From contig CP075365.1 in NCBI GenBank assembly GCA_019454125.1, positions 2,350,218 through 2,414,217 of the forward strand: a DNA stretch of 64,000 bases, read 5' to 3'. The stretch comes from Fimbriimonadaceae bacterium (GTDB lineage Bacteria; Armatimonadota; Fimbriimonadia; Fimbriimonadales; Fimbriimonadaceae). A program made the position numbers and the translations under genes. Positions 1,634-24,661 of the stretch are shown one piece after another; positions within the stretch are counted from its first letter, which is position 1, and every line of letters begins with the position of its first letter. The notes beneath the pieces are model-generated. The model was not told the DNA's origin and searched no databases. It saw only the letters and a program-made list of their open reading frames with translations.

Positions 1634-2993
1634 AAGTCAGATCGACCCGTCCCACCACTTCCCCGTCCAGCGACTCCACCAGGGCCGCCACCACGCTCTC
1701 TGCCACGGCATCGCGCACGCTGCCCGCGTCCGCCTCGACCATGACCCGGATCATCGGTTGGGTGCCACTAGCGCGGACGTTGATGCGCCCGCGACCGTCA
1801 AGCGCTCCTCGAGCGTCCTCGAGGGCCTGCACGACGCGCGGCGACTGCTCCCAGCCCTCCTTCTGCCCGACCCCGACATTGATCAGGAGCTGCGGCCAGG
1901 GTTCGTAGTCGTCGAAAAACTCGGCGGCCCGCTTGCCTTCGCGTTGCAGGACGCGAAGCAACTCGAGACAAGTGACGAGCCCGTCCCCGGTCGGCAGGTG
2001 CTCGGGAAAGATGATGTGCCCACTCTGTTCGCCACCGATCCTCCCAGAGGTCTCGCCCAGCCTCGCGCTGACGTATTTGTCGCCGACGTCGGTCCGATGG
2101 ACCTCGATCCCGTCGCGCTTCATGGCCTGCTCAAACCCGCCGTTCGTCATGACCGTGCCGACCACGAGCGGCGGCTCCAGGCGACCGTGCTTGCGCCAGT
2201 GATGGCACCAGATGGCCATGGTCCGGTCGCCATTGATAAGGCGGCCCTGGTCGTCGCAGAAGACGGCGCGGTCGGCGTCGCCGTCGAAGGCCACGCCCAC
2301 GGCGCACCCCTCCGATTTCGTCAGCCCGAGGATGGTCTCAGGTTTGGTCGCACCGCCTTCCGCATTGATGTTCACACCGTCGGGCGCGCACCCGGTCGCC
2401 GTGACGCACGCGCCCAGCCGCTCCAGGACCCGTGGGGCGATCTCGTAGGCGGCGCCGTTGCCGGCATCGACCGCGACGGTCAGGCCCTCGAGCCCTTCAG
2501 GCACGAGCGAGACCAGCCAATCTTCATAGGCCGCGCCAAGCTGCTTCGGCTGGGCCAGGTAGCCGATCTCCGGCCCGGTCGGGCGCGTGGCCGGTTCTGC
2601 TCCCATGTGCTCCGTGACCCACGCTTCCATCTCCGCCGATGCCTTGCGGCCGTCAGGGCCGAGCAGTTTGACCCCGTTGTCGGGAGCCGGGTTATGGCTC
2701 GCGGAGACCACCGCCCCGAGCCCAAAACCGCCCTGCCGAAGGATCCAGCTGACGCCGCCCGTCGGGAAAACCCCGATGGCATCGACGTCCTGACCCGAAC
2801 TGCAGAACCCACTCGCCAGAGCAGCGCCCAGCATCGGGCCGCTCCGCCGCGTGTCCCGAGCGATGAGCACCTTGCCTAACCCTTGGCCCGCCATCCTGCG
2901 GCCCGCCGCTTGGCCGATCTGAAACACCATTTCGGGCGTGAGGAACTGGTTGGCGACGCCCCGCACGCCGTCGGTCCCGAAGAGTTTTTTCAA
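1617..2993 (-). CDS. glmM: Phosphoglucosamine mutase
   Basis: GlmM interconverts glucosamine-6-phosphate and glucosamine-1-phosphate on the way to UDP-GlcNAc for peptidoglycan. The 458-residue protein shows the phosphoserine loop SASHNP with Ser99, the metal loop DGDADR, the sugar loop GEQSGH and the phosphate-binding loop RASGTQP near the C terminus, in the order of alpha-D-phosphohexomutases. The N-terminal KLFGTDGVRG is typical of GlmM. The start overlaps the grpE stop by 4 bp. The pathway partner glmS lies in the same window at 51.1 kb but is not linked. Confidence 0.96.
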   Translation of the reverse strand: MKKLFGTDGVRGVANQFLTPEMVFQIGQAAGRRMAGQGLGKVLIARDTRRSGPMLGAALASGFCSSGQDVDAIGVFPTGGVSWILRQGGFGLGAVVSASHNPAPDNGVKLLGPDGRKASAEMEAWVTEHMGAEPATRPTGPEIGYLAQPKQLGAAYEDWLVSLVPEGLEGLTVAVDAGNGAAYEIAPRVLERLGACVTATGCAPDGVNINAEGGATKPETILGLTKSEGCAVGVAFDGDADRAVFCDDQGRLINGDRTMAIWCHHWRKHGRLEPPLVVGTVMTNGGFEQAMKRDGIEVHRTDVGDKYVSARLGETSGRIGGEQSGHIIFPEHLPTGDGLVTCLELLRVLQREGKRAAEFFDDYEPWPQLLINVGVGQKEGWEQSPRVVQALEDARGALDGRGRINVRASGTQPMIRVMVEADAGSVRDAVAESVVAALVESLDGEVVGRVDLTYALGD

Positions 2994-3541
2994 GGTTTTG
3001 TCGTGACCTTCACGCGCGCTGGCCGCACGACCCTGCCGTGAAGCGTGTACCCCGTCTCCAGGACCTCCGCCACAGTGCCCTCGTTATGCTCCTCTGACGG
3101 CAGCTCGGCGAGCGCTTCATGGTGTTCGGGGTCGAACTGGCGCCCGTGGGCATCGATCTGGTTCACCGAGGCGGACTCCAGGGCCCTTCTCAGCTGTCGG
3201 TCGACCGCCCCGACCCCTTCAAGCAGCTTCTCCAGGCTCGCACCTTGCTCGGCCGCACGCATCGTCCGCTCGAGGTTGTCCAGCACGGGGAGAAGCATCT
3301 CCACCAGTGGCAGGACCGCAAACTTCTTGTCCTCTTCGGCTTGGGCCCGGATACGCCTTTGAACGTTTTGGGCTTCTGCCATGGCCCTCAAGAGTTGGTC
3401 TTTCAGAGCCTCCTTCTCAGATTGAAGGGCCGTGACCTGCCGTTTCAGGTCAGTTATCTCTGACGTGGCCCCTTCCGTGAGGCCCTCTTGCGAACTTATC
3501 GGTTCGTTAATAGGTTCGGGAGTTTCCACTCTATTGTCCAC
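2990..3541 (-). CDS. grpE: Nucleotide exchange factor GrpE
   Basis: GrpE releases ADP from DnaK. The protein is 183 residues, with a charged N-terminal tail, a long coiled coil (about residues 25-90) and the C-terminal beta domain with the GTVAEVLETGY and ARVKV segments that mark the family. The start is GTG (3541-3539), chosen because a perfect TATAAT sits 8 bp upstream, consistent with a leaderless transcript, and no better start lies upstream. It heads an operon with glmM and coaX; dnaK and dnaJ are not in the window. Confidence 0.93.
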   Translation of the reverse strand: MDNRVETPEPINEPISSQEGLTEGATSEITDLKRQVTALQSEKEALKDQLLRAMAEAQNVQRRIRAQAEEDKKFAVLPLVEMLLPVLDNLERTMRAAEQGASLEKLLEGVGAVDRQLRRALESASVNQIDAHGRQFDPEHHEALAELPSEEHNEGTVAEVLETGYTLHGRVVRPARVKVTTKP

Positions 3542-16329: not shown

Positions 16330-17286
16330 CTACTTCTCGTCGCCGTTGTCCATGTGCACCGTTTCGATCCGCCGGATCTTGCGCATCCCGCTGCGCATCA
16401 GGATCGATTCGGTCATGCTATAGCCACGCTTGTAGCGCACGCCCTTCAGCAGGTCGCCGGACGTGATGCCCGTCGCGCAGAAGACCACGTTGCCCCGCGC
16501 GAGGTCTTCCGTCGTCAGCACCCGCTCCGGGTCGCCGTCCATCATCTGCTTGGCGCGCACCTTCTCCTCCTCGTTGCGGAACTTCATCCGCGCCTGCATC
16601 TCACCGCCCGAGCAGAGCACCGCGACCGCCGTCAGGACGCCCTCCGGCGCGCCGCCGATCCCCATCAGCCCGTCGATCCCCGCGTCCGGGTCTAGCGCCG
16701 CAATGGCCACGGAAAGGTCGCCGTCCGGCACCAGGTGCACTCGGCAACCGGTTTCGCGAAGCTCGTGGATCAGCGCTTCGTGCCGCGGCCGGTCCAACAC
16801 GCCGATGATCATCTCGTCGACGTCCTTGCCCAGCGCCTTCGCCATCAGCCGCACGTTCACGCGGGGCGGTAGCGTTATGTCCAAGACACCGACGCACTCC
16901 TTGCCCGCGACCAACTTGTCCATATAGGTGTCCGGGGCGTGCATCAGGTAGCCCTCCCCCTCCACCGCCGCCGCCAAGACGCTGATCGCGTTCGGAGTGC
17001 CGTTCGCGCAGAGGTTCGTGCCCTCCAAAGGGTCGACTGCGATCTGCACCTCGGGCGAGTCGCCACTGCCCAGCTTCTCGCCGATGTACAGCATCGGCGC
17101 CTCGTCCCGCTCCCCTTCGCCGATCACGATCGTGGCGCACATCTCCATCGAGTTGAGCGCCCCCCGCATCGCCTGGCACGCCGCATCGTCCGCCTCGTCC
17201 TTCTTTCCCTTGCCGACCCACTTGCTGGCCGCCAGCGCCGCCTCTTCCGTGACCCTTAAAAAATCGATGTGTCGGTACTGATCCAC
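16330..17286 (-). CDS. glpX: Class II fructose-1,6-bisphosphatase
   Basis: GlpX hydrolyses fructose-1,6-bisphosphate in gluconeogenesis. The 318-residue product has IGEGERDEAPML, the metal motif DPLEGTNLCANG and IGGAPEGVLTA, as in the GlpX family; class I FBPase features are absent. The GTG start at 17286 is decided by an AAGGAG ribosome binding site 6 nt upstream and a TATACT promoter box 20 nt upstream; the frame continues further upstream only because the repeat array lacks stops. It is transcribed away from the array, whose nearest unit begins about 16 bp beyond the -10 box. Confidence 0.94.
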   Translation of the reverse strand: MDQYRHIDFLRVTEEAALAASKWVGKGKKDEADDAACQAMRGALNSMEMCATIVIGEGERDEAPMLYIGEKLGSGDSPEVQIAVDPLEGTNLCANGTPNAISVLAAAVEGEGYLMHAPDTYMDKLVAGKECVGVLDITLPPRVNVRLMAKALGKDVDEMIIGVLDRPRHEALIHELRETGCRVHLVPDGDLSVAIAALDPDAGIDGLMGIGGAPEGVLTAVAVLCSGGEMQARMKFRNEEEKVRAKQMMDGDPERVLTTEDLARGNVVFCATGITSGDLLKGVRYKRGYSMTESILMRSGMRKIRRIETVHMDNGDEK

Positions 17287-17306
17287 GCTGATCTCCTTGT
17301 CAGTCC

Positions 17307-17312
17307 AGTATA
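17307..17312 (-). promoter_or_regulatory. -10 box of glpX (TATACT) adjoining the repeat array
   Basis: TATACT on the minus strand, followed by a 20-nt interval that contains AAGGAG 6 nt before GTG. The -35 position falls inside the first 44-bp repeat, so the array could affect expression of glpX. Confidence 0.6.
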
Positions 17313-17327
17313 CGAGAAATACCAAAC

Positions 17328-18030
17328 CCCCTCCCATAGCCTGGGGAGGGGGCAGGGGGAGGGCAAACAACCCCCTCACCAAGCCTGGGGAGGGGGTAGG
17401 GGGAGGGCAAACAACCCCCTCCCTAAGCCTGGGGAGGGGGCAGGGGGAGGGCAAGCAACCCCCTCCCAAAGCTTTGGGAGGGGGCAGGGGGAGGGCAAAC
17501 AACCCCCTCCCTAAGCCTGGGGAGGGGGCAGGGGGAGGGCAAGCAACCCCTCCCAAAGCTTTGGGAGGGGGCAGGAAAGGGAGCAAACAACCCCCTCACC
17601 AAGCCTGGGGAGGGGGCAGGGGGAGGGCAAACAACCCCCTCCTCAAGCCTGGGGAGGGGGCAGGGGGAGGGCAAACAACCCCCTCCCCAAGCCTGGGGAG
17701 GGGGCAGGGGGAGGGCAAACAACCCCCTCCCCACGCCTGGGGAGGGGGCAGGGGGAGGGCAAACAACCCCCTCCCTAAGCCTGGGGAGGGGGCAGGGGGA
17801 GGGCAAGCAACCCCCTCCCATTGCCTGGCGAGGGAGCAGGAGGAGGGCAAACAACCCCCTCACCAAGCCTAGAGAGGGGGCAGGGGCAGGGCAAACAACC
17901 CCCTCCCCAAGCCTGGGGAGGGGGTAGGGGGAGGGCAAACAACCCCCTCCCCGAGCCTAAGGAGGGGGCAGGAGGAGGGCAAGCAACCCCCTCCCCAAGC
18001 CTGGGGAGGGGGAAGGGGGAGGGGAGGATC
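17328..18030. repeat. Tandem array of sixteen 44-bp G-rich palindromic repeats
   Basis: Sixteen contiguous units of about 44 bp. Each has a C-rich arm (CCCCCTCCC), a 6-bp centre (usually nnAGCC, or AAGCTT in two copies where the palindrome is perfect), a G-rich arm (GGGGAGGGGG), then CAGGGGGAGGG and a CAAACAA or CAAGCAA linker. The + strand of nearly every unit holds four G-runs separated by 1, 2 and 1 bases, a strong predicted G-quadruplex. Copies differ by a few substitutions; units 6, 12, 13 and 15 are most diverged. There are no spacers, so it is not a CRISPR array. Open frames through it on both strands reflect missing stop codons only. Confidence 0.95.
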
Positions 18031-18062: not shown

Positions 18063-18647
18063 CTACGCTGCTTTCTTCTTCGAACCCGACCCGCTCTCCG
18101 CGACCGAGAACGACACCTGGCTGATGCCGATCGGCTGGATCGTCGCGGCCTGGCCCGTCGTGGTCTTAACGAACCGCACCGCCGCCGCATACCAACCCGC
18201 CGGCACGTCGACATCGGTGCTCAAGCTGCCCGGCAGGAACCGGAAGAACTTCTTCGTGCGGTAAGCGCCCTTCTGCGGGTTGCGGATCTGGCTTGCCAGG
18301 GGCTGGAGCAGGATCTCCGTCGTCACGTTCGACGCGTTCGGCTGGTTCGCCGTGAAGGTCACCTTGCCCGTCGTCGCCGTCGCCGTCACGACCACCGTGT
18401 CGCCCGTGAAAGGAGTCGTGGGCGGGGCCAAGGGCACCGAGCCGCCCGGCGTCGCCTGGAGGAACTTCGTCGACAAAGCGACAAAGGCCTGCATCGCTCG
18501 CTGCTCGTTCGACTTGCCTGTCGCCGCGTCGCACGGCGCGTCGATCGTCTCGATCCGCTGCAGCGGGAGAGGCGAAGTCGGCAGCTTCACCGGCCGCCGG
18601 TTCCCATACTCGTCGTACTTTCCCTCCCACACCAACTCCGTCTTCAT
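18063..18647 (-). CDS. Uncharacterised protein, paralogue of the gene at 23831-24661
   Basis: The 194-residue product has no signal peptide or membrane helix and ends in a basic tail (GSGSKKKAA). Residues around 135-175 (DVDVPAGWYAAAVRFVKTTTGQ) closely match the C terminus of the protein at 24.5 kb (DVDVPVPPGRYAVAVRFVK), and the segment before it also aligns, so the two are paralogues. The middle contains a beta-rich segment (TVVVTATATTGKVTFTANQ). The ATG at 18647 is used; a GTG lies 17 codons upstream. It sits between the 44-bp repeat array and the TIGR04255 cassette. Function unknown. Confidence 0.7.
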   Translation of the reverse strand: MKTELVWEGKYDEYGNRRPVKLPTSPLPLQRIETIDAPCDAATGKSNEQRAMQAFVALSTKFLQATPGGSVPLAPPTTPFTGDTVVVTATATTGKVTFTANQPNASNVTTEILLQPLASQIRNPQKGAYRTKKFFRFLPGSLSTDVDVPAGWYAAAVRFVKTTTGQAATIQPIGISQVSFSVAESGSGSKKKAA

Positions 18648-18764
18648 CCGGCTCAACGGATGCGGATTCCCCGGCCCCCAGCTCGTACTATCGCCCACTT
18701 ATGCTGAGTTTGTCCCAAATCGCAGGAAGAGGTCTTCGGGGCTGTGGCTCGGACAGTGCCCTCC

Positions 18765-18788
18765 CTAGGGCTCACGGGTGGGCCCTAG
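18765..18788. terminator. Inverted repeat at the end of the three-gene cassette
   Basis: CTAGGGC (18765-18771) pairs with GCCCTAG (18782-18788) around a 10-bp loop; the stem includes the stop codon of the last cassette gene. There is no T-tract downstream on the minus strand, so it may mark the cassette edge rather than terminate. Confidence 0.4.
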
Positions 18789-19228
18789 AGTCCCGCTTTC
18801 CAAGTAGGCCGCCGAAGAATCCGCCCCTGGGCCACTCGCACTAGTTCGTCCTGTTGCTCCCTTTCTGGACAGCCTTTGATGCTCCAATGAGCGCTACCGA
18901 ACTCCGGGTCGGCCAAATCCTCCGCCCACTCTAACTCCAGGCCAAGCTCCTCAAGGACGGACGTTTCGAACACGCAGACTCCCGGAACCTGCTTGCTAGT
19001 CTTGTGAGATTCGCAAAGCCGCGTCGAAGCGTCAGGGTCGGCCTCCCATTCGTCCCATCCCGTGACGGACAGTTCGGTTTCTCTGACTCTGACTCCGTCC
19101 CGCAGGATGCTCTTGCACTTGAACGCGCTTGGTCTCAGACTCTGGGAGTCCTCGTCGAAGTCCTCGACAAGGAACCGTCGAGCCAGAAGTCGCGGCCTAG
19201 GCGGGGGTGGAGCCGACCCAGCGGACAT
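18785..19228 (-). CDS. Uncharacterised protein, third gene of the TIGR04255-type cassette
   Basis: The 147-residue product (ATG 19228; further starts at 19243 and 19249) has a proline-rich N terminus and then a mixed alpha/beta sequence with ARRFLVEDFDED, RDGVRVRETELSV and a late SIKGCPE. It resembles from memory small hypothetical proteins encoded beside TIGR04255 genes, which share an N-terminal 'R-F/L-hydrophobic ... SAFK ... LSV' pattern; this is not verified. Its start lies inside the preceding gene (32-bp overlap), which argues for coupled translation and shared function. The inverted repeat at 18765-18788 covers its stop. Confidence 0.65.
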   Translation of the reverse strand: MSAGSAPPPPRPRLLARRFLVEDFDEDSQSLRPSAFKCKSILRDGVRVRETELSVTGWDEWEADPDASTRLCESHKTSKQVPGVCVFETSVLEELGLELEWAEDLADPEFGSAHWSIKGCPEREQQDELVRVAQGRILRRPTWKAGL

Positions 19229-19727
19229 GCTCGCCCCATACATGCTCACTCGGCATGGTCTCCGCTTGGTGGAGTCCCTTTGCCGACTTCCGGATGGTCA
19301 CGGTGCCGCCGTCTTGACTGATGACAACGATCACCCTGCGCTCCCGATCTGCCGAATCCACCATGAACTCAACTTCGCCCTCGTCCGTGGCTCCGGCTGA
19401 AAAGACTAGCCCGGGCCAATCCTGCTTGACCAATTCGAGTCTGCTAGCCCATCTCCTAGCTTGGACGAAGGCTTTTTCACTGGGCTTTAAGGGCTCGTCC
19501 GTTTCAAACTGTCGCAACGACTTCTGCACCCGGTTCAGTAGCCTCTCCGCTAAAGTCACCTCTACGGTTTGGTTGGAGGTTACAATAACTTCTACGGATC
19601 GCCAGGGGATAGTTGAACGACGCGCAGTATGGTCGCTTCGTCGCACGGGACTGACGTCGACGGTATTGGCGCCGGCCTCCCCCGCTAGTGTGGTAGCTGA
19701 CGAGCTATAGGTGTGTCTAAGCGCCAT
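19197..19727 (-). CDS. Uncharacterised protein, second gene of the TIGR04255-type cassette
   Basis: The 176-residue product has a polar N terminus, a helical segment (LAERLLNRVQKSLRQFETDE) around residues 60-80, and C-terminal beta strands (GEVEFMVDSADRERRVIVVISQDGGTVTI). I do not recognise the family. Its ATG lies within the last codons of the TIGR04255 gene (11-bp overlap) and its own 3' end overlaps the next gene, so all three genes are almost certainly one translationally coupled unit. Base composition is visibly less GC-rich than the core genes, a sign of possible transfer. Confidence 0.65.
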   Translation of the reverse strand: MALRHTYSSSATTLAGEAGANTVDVSPVRRSDHTARRSTIPWRSVEVIVTSNQTVEVTLAERLLNRVQKSLRQFETDEPLKPSEKAFVQARRWASRLELVKQDWPGLVFSAGATDEGEVEFMVDSADRERRVIVVISQDGGTVTIRKSAKGLHQAETMPSEHVWGEHVRWVGSTPA

Positions 19728-20466
19728 GCAGACCCCACTCTTTCTTGGCCTCTTGGCTTATCAATTCCGGGAAGAGCTCGTTGAGTCTTTCATGGCACTG
19801 CGCAAGATGACCCGACCAACTTGCTTCGTTAACGAAACTCCCGGCAATCGTCTGAAAGATAAGTCCCGGCTCTGAGTCGAGTTCTTCGACGACACCCGGC
19901 ACCAGCTTGAGCCGTAAGTCCACTCTTTCCTCCCGCCACGCCAGCTCATAATGGTGCACGGAGCTGCCAGCGCCATCAAGCGGCCTTCGAAACCTATCCG
20001 AGAGATACCGAGCGACCCCTCCCGATTCCAGTTGTTGCTTTGTGACGTAATTCATATACGTCATCTGGACAGCTGAGCATGACGGGCTGGGCTCGGTCAA
20101 GGCACCGATCTGATCGAAGCACCAGCTTAGGTTATCCACCAAGGCCTCATACCGCGGGTAGGCTGGCCCCTCTCGTCGATAAATCCAGCGCACCATTAAG
20201 AGGTTTGGCTGAATTACGACCACCATGCTCCGATCTTCCGCTGAAAATGCCACACCGGCCAACTGGAAAGGGTCGAGCACAATCTCGCTCGGCGGCTTAC
20301 CGGGTGCAGCCTCAAGCTGAGACGGCTGGGCGACTTTAGGGAACTTAGCCCCAAAAAGCTTCTGCAGTTCTGTTACGGCTGCGATCGGCATTGGGTTGGG
20401 CAGGTCGAGAGCAAGGCGCACGTCGACCTGCGCGAGTGGTAGTCGGTCGAACTCTAACGAACTCAT
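19717..20466 (-). CDS. TIGR04255 family protein (sporadically distributed, unknown function)
   Basis: The 249-residue protein shows the family layout as I remember it: an N-terminal strand (PLAQVDVRLAL), a central 'IQPNLLMVRWIYRR ... YPRYEALVDNL' segment where a residue-rich beta sheet meets a conserved Y-x-x-Y, then MTYMNYV and a C-terminal acidic helical part. TIGR04255 proteins occur sporadically in accessory regions and have no firm function. It leads the three-gene cassette. A promoter could not be placed; no leaderless-type box is evident before the ATG. Confidence 0.72.
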   Translation of the reverse strand: MSSLEFDRLPLAQVDVRLALDLPNPMPIAAVTELQKLFGAKFPKVAQPSQLEAAPGKPPSEIVLDPFQLAGVAFSAEDRSMVVVIQPNLLMVRWIYRREGPAYPRYEALVDNLSWCFDQIGALTEPSPSCSAVQMTYMNYVTKQQLESGGVARYLSDRFRRPLDGAGSSVHHYELAWREERVDLRLKLVPGVVEELDSEPGLIFQTIAGSFVNEASWSGHLAQCHERLNELFPELISQEAKKEWGLHGA

Positions 20467-20669
20467 CGGTACACTCGATTCATCCTTGACGCGGCTTCAT
20501 TCCAATATTGGCAACCTTTTCCTCCTCCAGACGGGTTCCTGGGCCTAGTCGCCGCACTCCTTTTGTCGACATCAAGCGATCAGTCGTCCGACCTTCTCCA
20601 ACACATCGGGCATCCAAGTCACTGTGCCGGGGCCGTCTCGCGATTGCCCCGGCCAGCGTGTCTGATGCA

Positions 20670-21959
20670 TTACATGAGACTTGGAGCATCGCCTCGTGCG
20701 TGCTCTGTCTCCTCCAGCTGTTCGTCGAACCCGGGCAAGGCCGGCATCTCCTTGCCGACGATGCCTTGCAGGTCTCCTTGGAGGCCGGCAATAGCGGCTA
20801 GGATGCGCTCAATCCGCTTCTCCTGTCGCGCCCACCTTGCCTGCGTCGCCCTCTTCTCCGATTCCAGGTCTTCCTTCAAGTCCTGGAAGGGTCTTGCCAT
20901 GCTCTCCATCACCGTCCTGAACTCCGGCCCCGTCAGGTACGAGTAGAGGAGAGCCTCCTTACTCTCCCGGCCGGTCGCCGCCGCCCTAGCCTGCGCCGTA
21001 GCCTCAAGCCCTTGCCTTAGCGCGATGCAGAGGGCGACCGCGTGGCTCGGTCGCACGACCCAGACCCCTTCGCATTCCGCGAAGTCGCGCACGTCCTTGG
21101 GCAAGACCTCGCTGACGATGACCGCGATGTCCGCTTTGGCCTCTGCCGCGTCCTGCTTGACTTTCGTGCACCAGTCGGTGCCCCAGTTCTGCGCCCGCTT
21201 GACCTCCCAAAGGATCAGGCCCGCGTTTCCGCCCATGTTGCCCAGCACCCTCTGGCGGATGTCCGCGCCGTGGTGGCCCGTCTTCACCGCCTCGATCGTG
21301 TCCCGAGGGAACGACTGGCGCAGCGTGGTCTCGAAATCCACCTCGAGCACCTCGCCCTGGCGCTGCTGGGAGCCGAGCTCCGCCTTGCGTTGTGCCTCCT
21401 TGACCTTCTCATGCATCTCTGCGATTAGCTTGTCCTTCTCCGCGATTTGGAGCTTGTGGGCCGATTCGGCCTCTTGCAAGAGCGTCTGCCTGATCACGTT
21501 CCGCTCGTTGTCGACTTGCCGGGCAACCTCAAGCTCAAGGTTCTTTTCGCGCTCCTCGACGTCACCTTTCTGCTTGCGAAGGGCAAGCTCCGCAGCCTTC
21601 GCCTGGGCCAGTTCGGCCCTCAGCCGGACTTGCTCAGTCTTGGCGGTCTCCAGTTCGGGCTGGAGCTCCTCGACGAGTTGCGCGCGAAGAGCGTTGCGGA
21701 GCGTTTGCCTTTCATGCGCTAAGCGCCGGCTGACTTCGGCCTCCGCCGCCTCCTTCATCTCGGTCGCCTCTCGGATGCGCTCTTCCGCTTCCTGGATGAG
21801 CTTCTTGGCCTCGTCGTGGGCGGTGGTCGCCTGCTTCTGGGCGGCCTCGACCAACTTCTTGGCCTTCGCCTCCGCCTGCTCGACGAAGGGTCGGGCGAGC
21901 CTCTCGGTCACTTCGAAACTATTGCCGCAATCCGGGCACTGAATAGTGTTGTTGAACAT
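20670..21959 (-). CDS. DUF2130 family protein: coiled coil plus PD-(D/E)xK-like domain
   Basis: The 429-residue product begins with a CPDCGNSFEV single CxxC knuckle, continues with an Ala/Glu/Lys-rich coiled coil of about 170 residues, and then a globular domain with GADIRQRV, LILWEVKRA and a following alpha helix. The Asp and the ExK spaced by a strand fit the active site of PD-(D/E)xK nucleases, which is the fold I recall for DUF2130. The start at 21959 is decided by AGGAGAAG just upstream. Nuclease activity and DNA target are inference; its neighbours suggest a defence or repair setting. Confidence 0.85.
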   Translation of the reverse strand: MFNNTIQCPDCGNSFEVTERLARPFVEQAEAKAKKLVEAAQKQATTAHDEAKKLIQEAEERIREATEMKEAAEAEVSRRLAHERQTLRNALRAQLVEELQPELETAKTEQVRLRAELAQAKAAELALRKQKGDVEEREKNLELEVARQVDNERNVIRQTLLQEAESAHKLQIAEKDKLIAEMHEKVKEAQRKAELGSQQRQGEVLEVDFETTLRQSFPRDTIEAVKTGHHGADIRQRVLGNMGGNAGLILWEVKRAQNWGTDWCTKVKQDAAEAKADIAVIVSEVLPKDVRDFAECEGVWVVRPSHAVALCIALRQGLEATAQARAAATGRESKEALLYSYLTGPEFRTVMESMARPFQDLKEDLESEKRATQARWARQEKRIERILAAIAGLQGDLQGIVGKEMPALPGFDEQLEETEHARGDAPSLM

Positions 21960-22034
21960 GGTTCTTCTCCTGTGATCCGAACCGGTCGGTGGGACAAAGT
22001 CACCAGGTTTTCCACACAACCCCTTCTTGCAGCG

Positions 22035-22289
22035 CTGAAAAGCGTCTACAATTCAAGAGTTACGTGCGGCGACTTTGCCCTCGTAGCCTCCAGTGACAGC
22101 TGGAGTACAAAAGACCGTGCTTTGTACCGCTCCGTCTGTGGAGCGGTCAAACGTTGCTTCAACGTACGACTCTGGGATCAAGAAGACTTGGTGCGAAACC
22201 TCCTCGCCGAGTATGAAAATCTCGACGCCGATCTGCGCGCCGAAATCCCGCTGAAGCGCATCTGGACTCTCGCCAGGGGCGAAGAGTAA
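22035..22289 (+). pseudogene. Remnant of an Mrr-type restriction endonuclease (C-terminal part only)
   Basis: About 80 residues are homologous in my recollection to the C-terminal end of Mrr_cat restriction endonucleases: a hydrophobic strand (FALVASSD), then RLWDQEDLVRNLL and DLRAEIPLKRIW, ending EE. The expected N-terminal DNA-binding part and the catalytic half are absent: upstream the frame runs antisense into the DUF2130 gene. The only in-frame start candidates are weak (a TTG near 22120). It is 12 bp before a small gene that usually accompanies such enzymes, so a 5' truncation during rearrangement is likely. Confidence 0.5.
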
Positions 22290-23830: not shown

Positions 23831-24661
23831 ATGGCCAAGCTGAAGACGGGTGTCGGGATCGCGGGTTTGAGCGGCACGAGCGGGGGGGCGGTGTTCGTCG
23901 AGCGGCGCGACGGTTCGGTGCTCCTGCGCGAGCGGCCGGTGCAGCGGGGTCAGGCGACGGAAGCCCAGTCCGAGGCGAAGCGCTTGTTCCAGTCGGCGGC
24001 GCGGTCGTGGTCCGGGCTCACCGCGCAGGAGCAACGGGCCTGGCTCGCCTGGGCCCGGCAGGCGGACCCCTTTGCAGGGGCGCCGGGGGCGGCCAACGCG
24101 TACGTCTCGCTCACGGTGCGGTGGCTGGCGGCGAACGCTCCTGCCGAGTGGCTCCTCCCCCAGTCCCCTCCTCATTTGACTGGTCACGAGGAGGCGCGGT
24201 CCGAAGGGAGAGGGGGCTCCGGAGCAACAACCCCCAGCCTTCGGGGACAAGGCGCGGGAAGTGGGCCGTCAAGCCGGCCAATCCAGAGCGGCGTCGAGCC
24301 GCCGCACTCCGGGGGGGCGATGCTCGAACCTCCGCGGCTCCCCCCGGCGTCTCCATTTGGTGGTGACGCGGTGGCGGTGACGGTCGCGGCCCTGCCCGAG
24401 GCGCTACGATACGCTGCAGACCGCGCGAACGCGGAGGGCGTCGTGACGGAGCTGATGGCGGCGCGGGTGCGTTCGGCGCTGGCGGAGCCCCGCGACCGCG
24501 ACTACCGCATCCTCGGTCGCGCGAGGTTCGTCGAGGGCGGCCTGGATGTGGACGTGCCGGTGCCCCCGGGACGGTATGCGGTGGCGGTGCGGTTTGTGAA
24601 GATCGCGACCGGGCAGGCCTCGGCGGTGCTCCGGCTGGGTACGGCCTCGGTCGGCGGCTAG
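23831..24661 (+). CDS. Uncharacterised protein with low-complexity insert; paralogue of 18063-18647
   Basis: The 276-residue product starts with 'MAKLKTGVGIAGLSGTSGGAVFVERRDG', then RSWSGLTAQEQRAWLAW around residue 60, a layout I associate with small phage- or plasmid-linked proteins. A Pro/Gly/Ser-rich stretch (about residues 110-178) is encoded by GC-rich, hairpin-containing DNA that looks like an in-frame insertion. The final 45 residues (DVDVPVPPGRYAVAVRFVK) match the protein at 18.1-18.6 kb. The two paralogues point away from each other and bracket the accessory region. Function unknown. Confidence 0.65.
   Translation: MAKLKTGVGIAGLSGTSGGAVFVERRDGSVLLRERPVQRGQATEAQSEAKRLFQSAARSWSGLTAQEQRAWLAWARQADPFAGAPGAANAYVSLTVRWLAANAPAEWLLPQSPPHLTGHEEARSEGRGGSGATTPSLRGQGAGSGPSSRPIQSGVEPPHSGGAMLEPPRLPPASPFGGDAVAVTVAALPEALRYAADRANAEGVVTELMAARVRSALAEPRDRDYRILGRARFVEGGLDVDVPVPPGRYAVAVRFVKIATGQASAVLRLGTASVGG
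24158..24360. repeat. GC-rich, hairpin-containing insert within the coding sequence
   Basis: About 200 bp encoding a Pro/Gly/Ser-rich stretch absent from the paralogue at 18.1 kb. It contains CCTCCTC/GAGGAGG (around 24172-24197) and GCGGC-gtcga-GCCGC (24288-24302), and a run 'AACAACCCCCAGCC' reminiscent of the 44-bp array. Likely a small repetitive element that inserted in frame; the boundaries are approximate. Confidence 0.4.

Follow-up and report, generated by a model that had tools for sequence, protein, structure and literature searches.

The window analysed here, a stretch of DNA of 64,000 nucleotides, contains a tandem array. About 40 bp away on either side lie glpX and a hypothetical gene, both encoded on the minus strand. 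The features of the locus are listed below (Y, pyrimidine; R, purine).

16330..17286, minus strand: glpX (class II fructose-1,6-bisphosphatase; PF03320, E 1.8e-125), with a GTG start near 17286 and AAGGAG upstream
17325..18023, plus strand: array of 16 head-to-tail units of 44 bp; the class II strand (Y arm - R arm - third R tract) is the plus strand
17327..17363, plus strand: core of the first unit, nearest glpX, with Y arm, loop, R arm, 2-nt spacer and third tract; 9 of 9 triads
17545..17588, plus strand: decayed unit with a one-base shift and the third tract GGAAAGGG; 6 of 8 triads, without the G-quadruplex pattern
17987..18024, plus strand: core of the last unit, distal to glpX; 10 of 10 triads, third tract GGGGGAGGGG as in dispersed copies
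18063..18698, minus strand: hypothetical gene upstream of glpX, member of a multicopy orphan family; its N-terminal half fails to align

The nearest named relative of the glpX gene is that of Fimbriimonadaceae bacterium ACE_ARM1 (84% identity), which places the host in the Armatimonadota and probably in the Fimbriimonadaceae. The glpX reading frame of the window stays open upstream into the array as far as a TTG at 17586 (16330-17586, minus strand, 418 aa), so that an automatic annotation could wrongly place the start inside the repeats. The hypothetical gene at 18063-18698 (minus strand) is, judging by its alignment, possibly a truncated copy of the orphan family. Another member of this family lies in the window at 23831-24661 (plus strand) and a further one in the stretch L027 at 2499-3197 (minus strand), where a BoxC-type element is found in frame inside the coding sequence. 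The family has 26 matches in the relative G001, 12 in the relative G008 and 18 in the relative G016, and no Pfam or NCBIfam match over the cut-off.

Tandem Repeats Finder reports one array at 17325-18023, with a period of 44, 15.9 copies, 88% matches and a score of 1102, and direct reading of the sequence gives 16 units in head-to-tail arrangement. The sixteen tandem 44-bp repeats that the original prediction had placed beside glpX are thus real, and the palindromic nature of the unit and its non-coding period were borne out as well. Tandem arrays are prone to mis-assembly, and the copy number, or the entire array, might be an artefact of this kind. We regard this as extremely unlikely. The array sits in a single 2.65-Mb contig, 11 other loci carry similar arrays, and the first 15 units comprise 13 different sequences, which neither collapse nor false expansion creates.

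On the plus strand, the order of the unit is CCCCCTCCCC-aagcct-GGGGAGGGGG-ca-GGGGGAGGG-caaacaa, with C5TC4/G4AG5 arms; the last unit (17987..18024) has not retained the linker. Arms, third tract and linker are conserved to roughly the same degree within the array. This fits an array that was amplified recently and does not point to structural selection within it. The compensatory centres that had been described earlier did not withstand this analysis: they are confined to the innermost pair, where there is one two-sided change (C-G to A-T), and this is within chance. Of 500 shuffles, 112 equalled the overall pairing of the array and 187 equalled the two-sided change; neither thus provides evidence of selection inside the array. 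Higher-order blocks of units were not detected in the array (p 0.34).

In each unit, a pyrimidine arm is followed by a purine arm and then by a third purine tract that mirrors the purine arm. Because the last G tract is such a mirror, it could lie antiparallel on the purine strand of the hairpin and form G*GC and A*AT triads. This order matches the layout of class II intrastrand triplexes as defined by Holder et al. 2015 (PMC4666352). The ITxF definition of this class (PMC4666352) comprises consecutive tracts Y-R-R' with a stem of 6-15 and at most one mismatch from stem 7 up, a third tract that runs antiparallel to R, with G*GC, A*AT or T*AT, and loops of 1-6 nt. The three tracts were found with a stem of 9 in 12 of the 16 units and with a stem of 10 in nine units. 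With the 10-bp stem, the loop of 6 (aagcct) and the spacer of 2 (ca) fall within the permitted range; with the 9-triad stem, the first loop counts as 8. When 9 triads with at most one mismatch are taken as the rule, the 12 positive units compare with a mean of 0.03 hairpin-plus-third-tract motifs in shuffled arrays. No 9-triad motif occurs in the rest of the window or in control stretches that total 400 kb of this genome and were picked away from known element loci.

The mirror arrangement is also seen beyond the array. In 44 elements from relatives and this genome, the mirror register was better than the direct register in 17, equal in 27 and worse in none, and in a second set of 33 elements, which includes other families of the phylum, it was better in 10 and worse in one; the elements are related and the sets overlap, so these counts are not a strict probability. 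The search pattern used for the elements is slightly biased, as it permits T in the third tract at a single position. When third tracts were exchanged among the elements of the 33-element set, the observed triad number was never reached in 2000 trials. In the genomes searched, the class I order, i.e. the same pattern backwards, yielded very few matches, as opposed to hundreds for class II. BoxC-type elements of this genome, such as CCCCCTCTCC...GGAGAGGGGG-TT-GGGGGTGAGG, carry changes in all three tracts and keep their triads (10 of 10 by reading). On sequence grounds, the unit is probably best described as a class II intrastrand-triplex motif of the BoxC/PIT/TM type, and not as a hairpin combined with a G-quadruplex. 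Similar motifs fold as triplexes in vitro and have been linked to local genome variability (PMC4666352). For the E. coli motif, the triplex fold was shown in vitro, and in vivo DMS probing revealed no stable triplex (PMC4666352). We infer that the fold of the unit studied here forms in the cell.

With a covariance model of the unit, 145 matches were obtained in the genome at E 0.01. After removal of opposite-strand reads of the same hairpin, about 75 near-full-length copies remained (38 plus-strand, 37 minus-strand), distributed over 23 clusters. As the array served as query in the search for these clusters, loci with several copies may be over-represented. The unit thus belongs to a dispersed family, a possibility the original prediction had proposed to check. 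The wider class II pattern is patchy: it is present in 25 of 61 genomes of relatives and in 82 of 201 genomes of the phylum. In one relative (G008), the class II matches are markedly uneven between the strands of the whole contig, with 110 versus 17 raw matches, overlaps counted apart. In the genome under study, dnaA lies at 298 kb; the GC skew was too weak to place origin and terminus, and the orientation of the elements relative to replication was dropped from the analysis.

Among known repeats, TM_ECO (BoxC, PIT element; PMC4666352) shares with the window units the order of pyrimidine arm, short loop, purine arm, short spacer and mirrored third purine tract. It is likewise dispersed, with very uneven copy numbers among close relatives and loci that differ between relatives. 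However, the window units have C5TC4/G4AG5 arms, their effective loop is longer, and 16 of them are joined head to tail, an arrangement that contrasts with the singles and inverted pairs reported in the paper. The strict consensus of TM_ECO/BoxC, CCCTCNCCC N3-6 GGGNGAGGG N3 GGGNGAGGG, can be reached only with at least 3 substitutions in the window and at least 2 elsewhere in the stretches read; exact matches to it are present in the relatives G005 and G078. The GTAG- or CGTC-tagged REP/BIME clusters (Di Nocera et al. 2013, PMC3733652) are also short, palindromic and dispersed, and some large ones are reiterated in tandem with flanking DNA of variable length. Unlike these, the window family has no GTAG/CGTC tag and possesses a third purine tract, and head-to-tail neighbours, which are rare as pairs among the tagged REPs, dominate in it. 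A third group, the recurrent potential G-quadruplex sequences of Methanomicrobiaceae (PMC8044849), is dispersed and intergenic and combines G tracts with a C tract, so that hairpin, triplex or G-quadruplex is possible. In those sequences, the C tract is 3' of the G tracts, whereas in the window units it is found 5', as in E. coli. A literature search with the consensus letters of the unit returned only unrelated primer sequences. The array is real and built from a known kind of dispersed DNA repeat. As far as the searchable papers go, there appears to be no earlier report of intrastrand-triplex repeats in Armatimonadota.

The locus was compared with the one available same-genus genome, which contains no members of the family. 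The start of glpX and a TATACT hexamer upstream of it are conserved there, and there is no array at its glpX locus. Homology to the window breaks off at 17316, 9 bp short of the array, and upstream of glpX the same-genus genome has a different gene, cyclophilin-like by sequence. The right flank of the array (18785-22100) has no match in that genome. Since glpX is conserved and the other flank is absent from the sister genome, the array lies at the junction between a conserved gene and DNA that is not found there.

Two explanations would assign the array a function in the expression of glpX. In one, the four G tracts of each unit are predicted to form a short-loop parallel G-quadruplex that tunes expression. 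The G-quadruplex potential and the G tracts spaced 1, 2 and 1, both part of the original prediction, hold on paper for 12 of the 16 units, which read GGGG-A-GGGGG-CA-GGGGG-A-GGG and fit G3+N1-7 four times, and for similar archaeal repeats a potassium-dependent switch among hairpin, triplex and quadruplex has been described (PMC8044849). However, a G-quadruplex is not supported as the defining feature of the element. Four G tracts of at least 3 are not kept across the copies: they are lost from the units at 17545, 17809, 17853 and 17941, and the three BoxC-type elements of the genome have no canonical G-quadruplex pattern. The quadruplex also leaves both the complementary pyrimidine arm and the mirror placing of A/T in the third tract unexplained, and NMR on the related E. 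coli motif gave a triplex, not a quadruplex (PMC4666352). We rank the triplex above the quadruplex as the architecture conserved in these sequences, because of the mirrored third tract and because the BoxC-type elements keep their triads without the G-quadruplex pattern, and consider the quadruplex improbable as an explanation of the array. By analogy with the archaeal repeats (PMC8044849), triplex and quadruplex may compete in isolated single strands. The other explanation is that the hairpins are predicted to end or attenuate transcription from the upstream gene and thereby shield glpX. The minus-strand RNA is strongly folded (z -12.4), which makes an insulating or terminating effect on read-through into glpX possible; the glpX-proximal unit fits a terminator-like pattern, and a GC-rich inverted repeat occupies the corresponding place in the same-genus genome. 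Nevertheless, terminator-like sites are no commoner than in shuffles (2 versus 2.2), E. coli PIT elements showed no terminator or promoter activity (PMC4666352), and one hairpin would suffice, which leaves 16 unexplained, so that transcription control is an unlikely account as well. Nor did the proposed position of the first unit at the glpX -35 hold: unit 1 does cover the place 17 bp upstream of TATACT, but this falls in a G tract, and GGGAGG there is unlike TTGACA. A promoter scan near glpX gave no sigma-70-type match and no -35 match. The array thus seems to have no dedicated role in glpX control, although insulation of glpX from the upstream gene may be an incidental effect of its hairpins; any regulation of glpX by the array would be a side effect at most.

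The spread of the units could also be ascribed to mobilisation, if they were REPs distributed by a REP-associated tyrosine transposase (RAYT). Two RAYT proteins (NF047646) are present in the genome (100 and 81 bits, curated cut-off 80), and one BoxC-type element lies about 300 bp upstream of a RAYT, inside a neighbour gene. Moreover, a Y1 transposase is found in 14 of 14 relatives with at least 10 motif hits versus 28 of 47 others (p 0.002, uncorrected for relatedness). However, the hairpin carries no unpaired GTAG or CGTC tag at the end of the palindrome, where the flanks are CAAACAA and the G tract. The motif was found in the fetched flank of only one of 30 RAYT loci searched in the order, with a strict regular expression that missed the element of L027. 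In the same-genus genome, the elements are missing even though there are several RAYT matches. As the tags are missing, the elements are rarely near RAYT genes and they are absent from a RAYT-bearing genome of the same genus, mobilisation by RAYT is not supported, and we consider it quite unlikely.

Of the leads from this analysis, the one of greatest interest is that tandem amplification has recurred around the element, in a form specific to each locus. Tandem arrays coincide with 12 of the 23 element clusters, with periods of 43-138 bp that each include the locus's own flank. The control sequence (400 kb) has two tandem arrays, and a related hairpin is present in one of them. Neighbours within a cluster have the same orientation in 44 of 52 cases, and the relative G008 shows same-orientation series too, e.g. 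three units 51 bp apart. The loci share the core but differ in period, which is most simply read as amplification that followed the arrival of the element and occurred independently at each locus. REP clusters reiterated together with flanking DNA have already been described (PMC3733652), and the phenomenon of tandem amplification is thus not new in kind.

Several further observations were made. Multiples of 11 bp, a value near the DNA helical repeat, account for six of the 12 element-array periods (121, 88, 44, 66, 99 and 44; G000 C1 at 183.8k, 377.4k, 728.2k, 729.3k, 1275.0k and 2367.5k); this was spotted after the fact and is possibly due to chance, and some spacings inside those arrays vary. 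In L024 (G000 C1, 1521.2k and 1527.0k), tandem units of 95 and 138 bp hold the class II element interleaved with a second hairpin repeat of the ACCTCCCCCGAAGCATCGGGGGAGG type. A CRISPR-like array with the repeat GTTTCAATCCTCATCCCCCCGTTAGGAGGGATGCGAC is located in L020 (G000 C1, 717823-718393).

Taken as a whole, the array is best explained by a dispersed class II triplex element that settled by glpX and was then amplified locally by slippage or unequal recombination. We assign this a probability of roughly 0.7. The comparison is with one same-genus genome in about 20 contigs, and the order, insertion before amplification, is inferred. The G/C-rich class II element would have arrived between the hypothetical gene and glpX in this lineage. 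Its purine-rich strand would fold into a Y-R hairpin, with the third purine tract running antiparallel along the purine arm, and this fold would stall replication and drive duplications. Local multiplication would then have taken in some 7 bp of adjoining sequence as well as the element, with slippage of replication at the structured strand and unequal recombination between the copies as the most likely mechanisms. The broader notion that tandem amplification is nucleated by class II triplex elements, each with its own flank and a period set by the locus, is possible but considerably more doubtful.

The array represents a naturally long, diverged example of class II triplex repeats, and the 82 of 201 genomes extend intrastrand-triplex repeats to the phylum Armatimonadota. 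An element that is associated with arrays of many periods gives the proposed link between such motifs and genome instability a concrete, testable form. If the elements do act as nucleation points, they would generate minisatellites and disrupt synteny quite generally in Armatimonadota.
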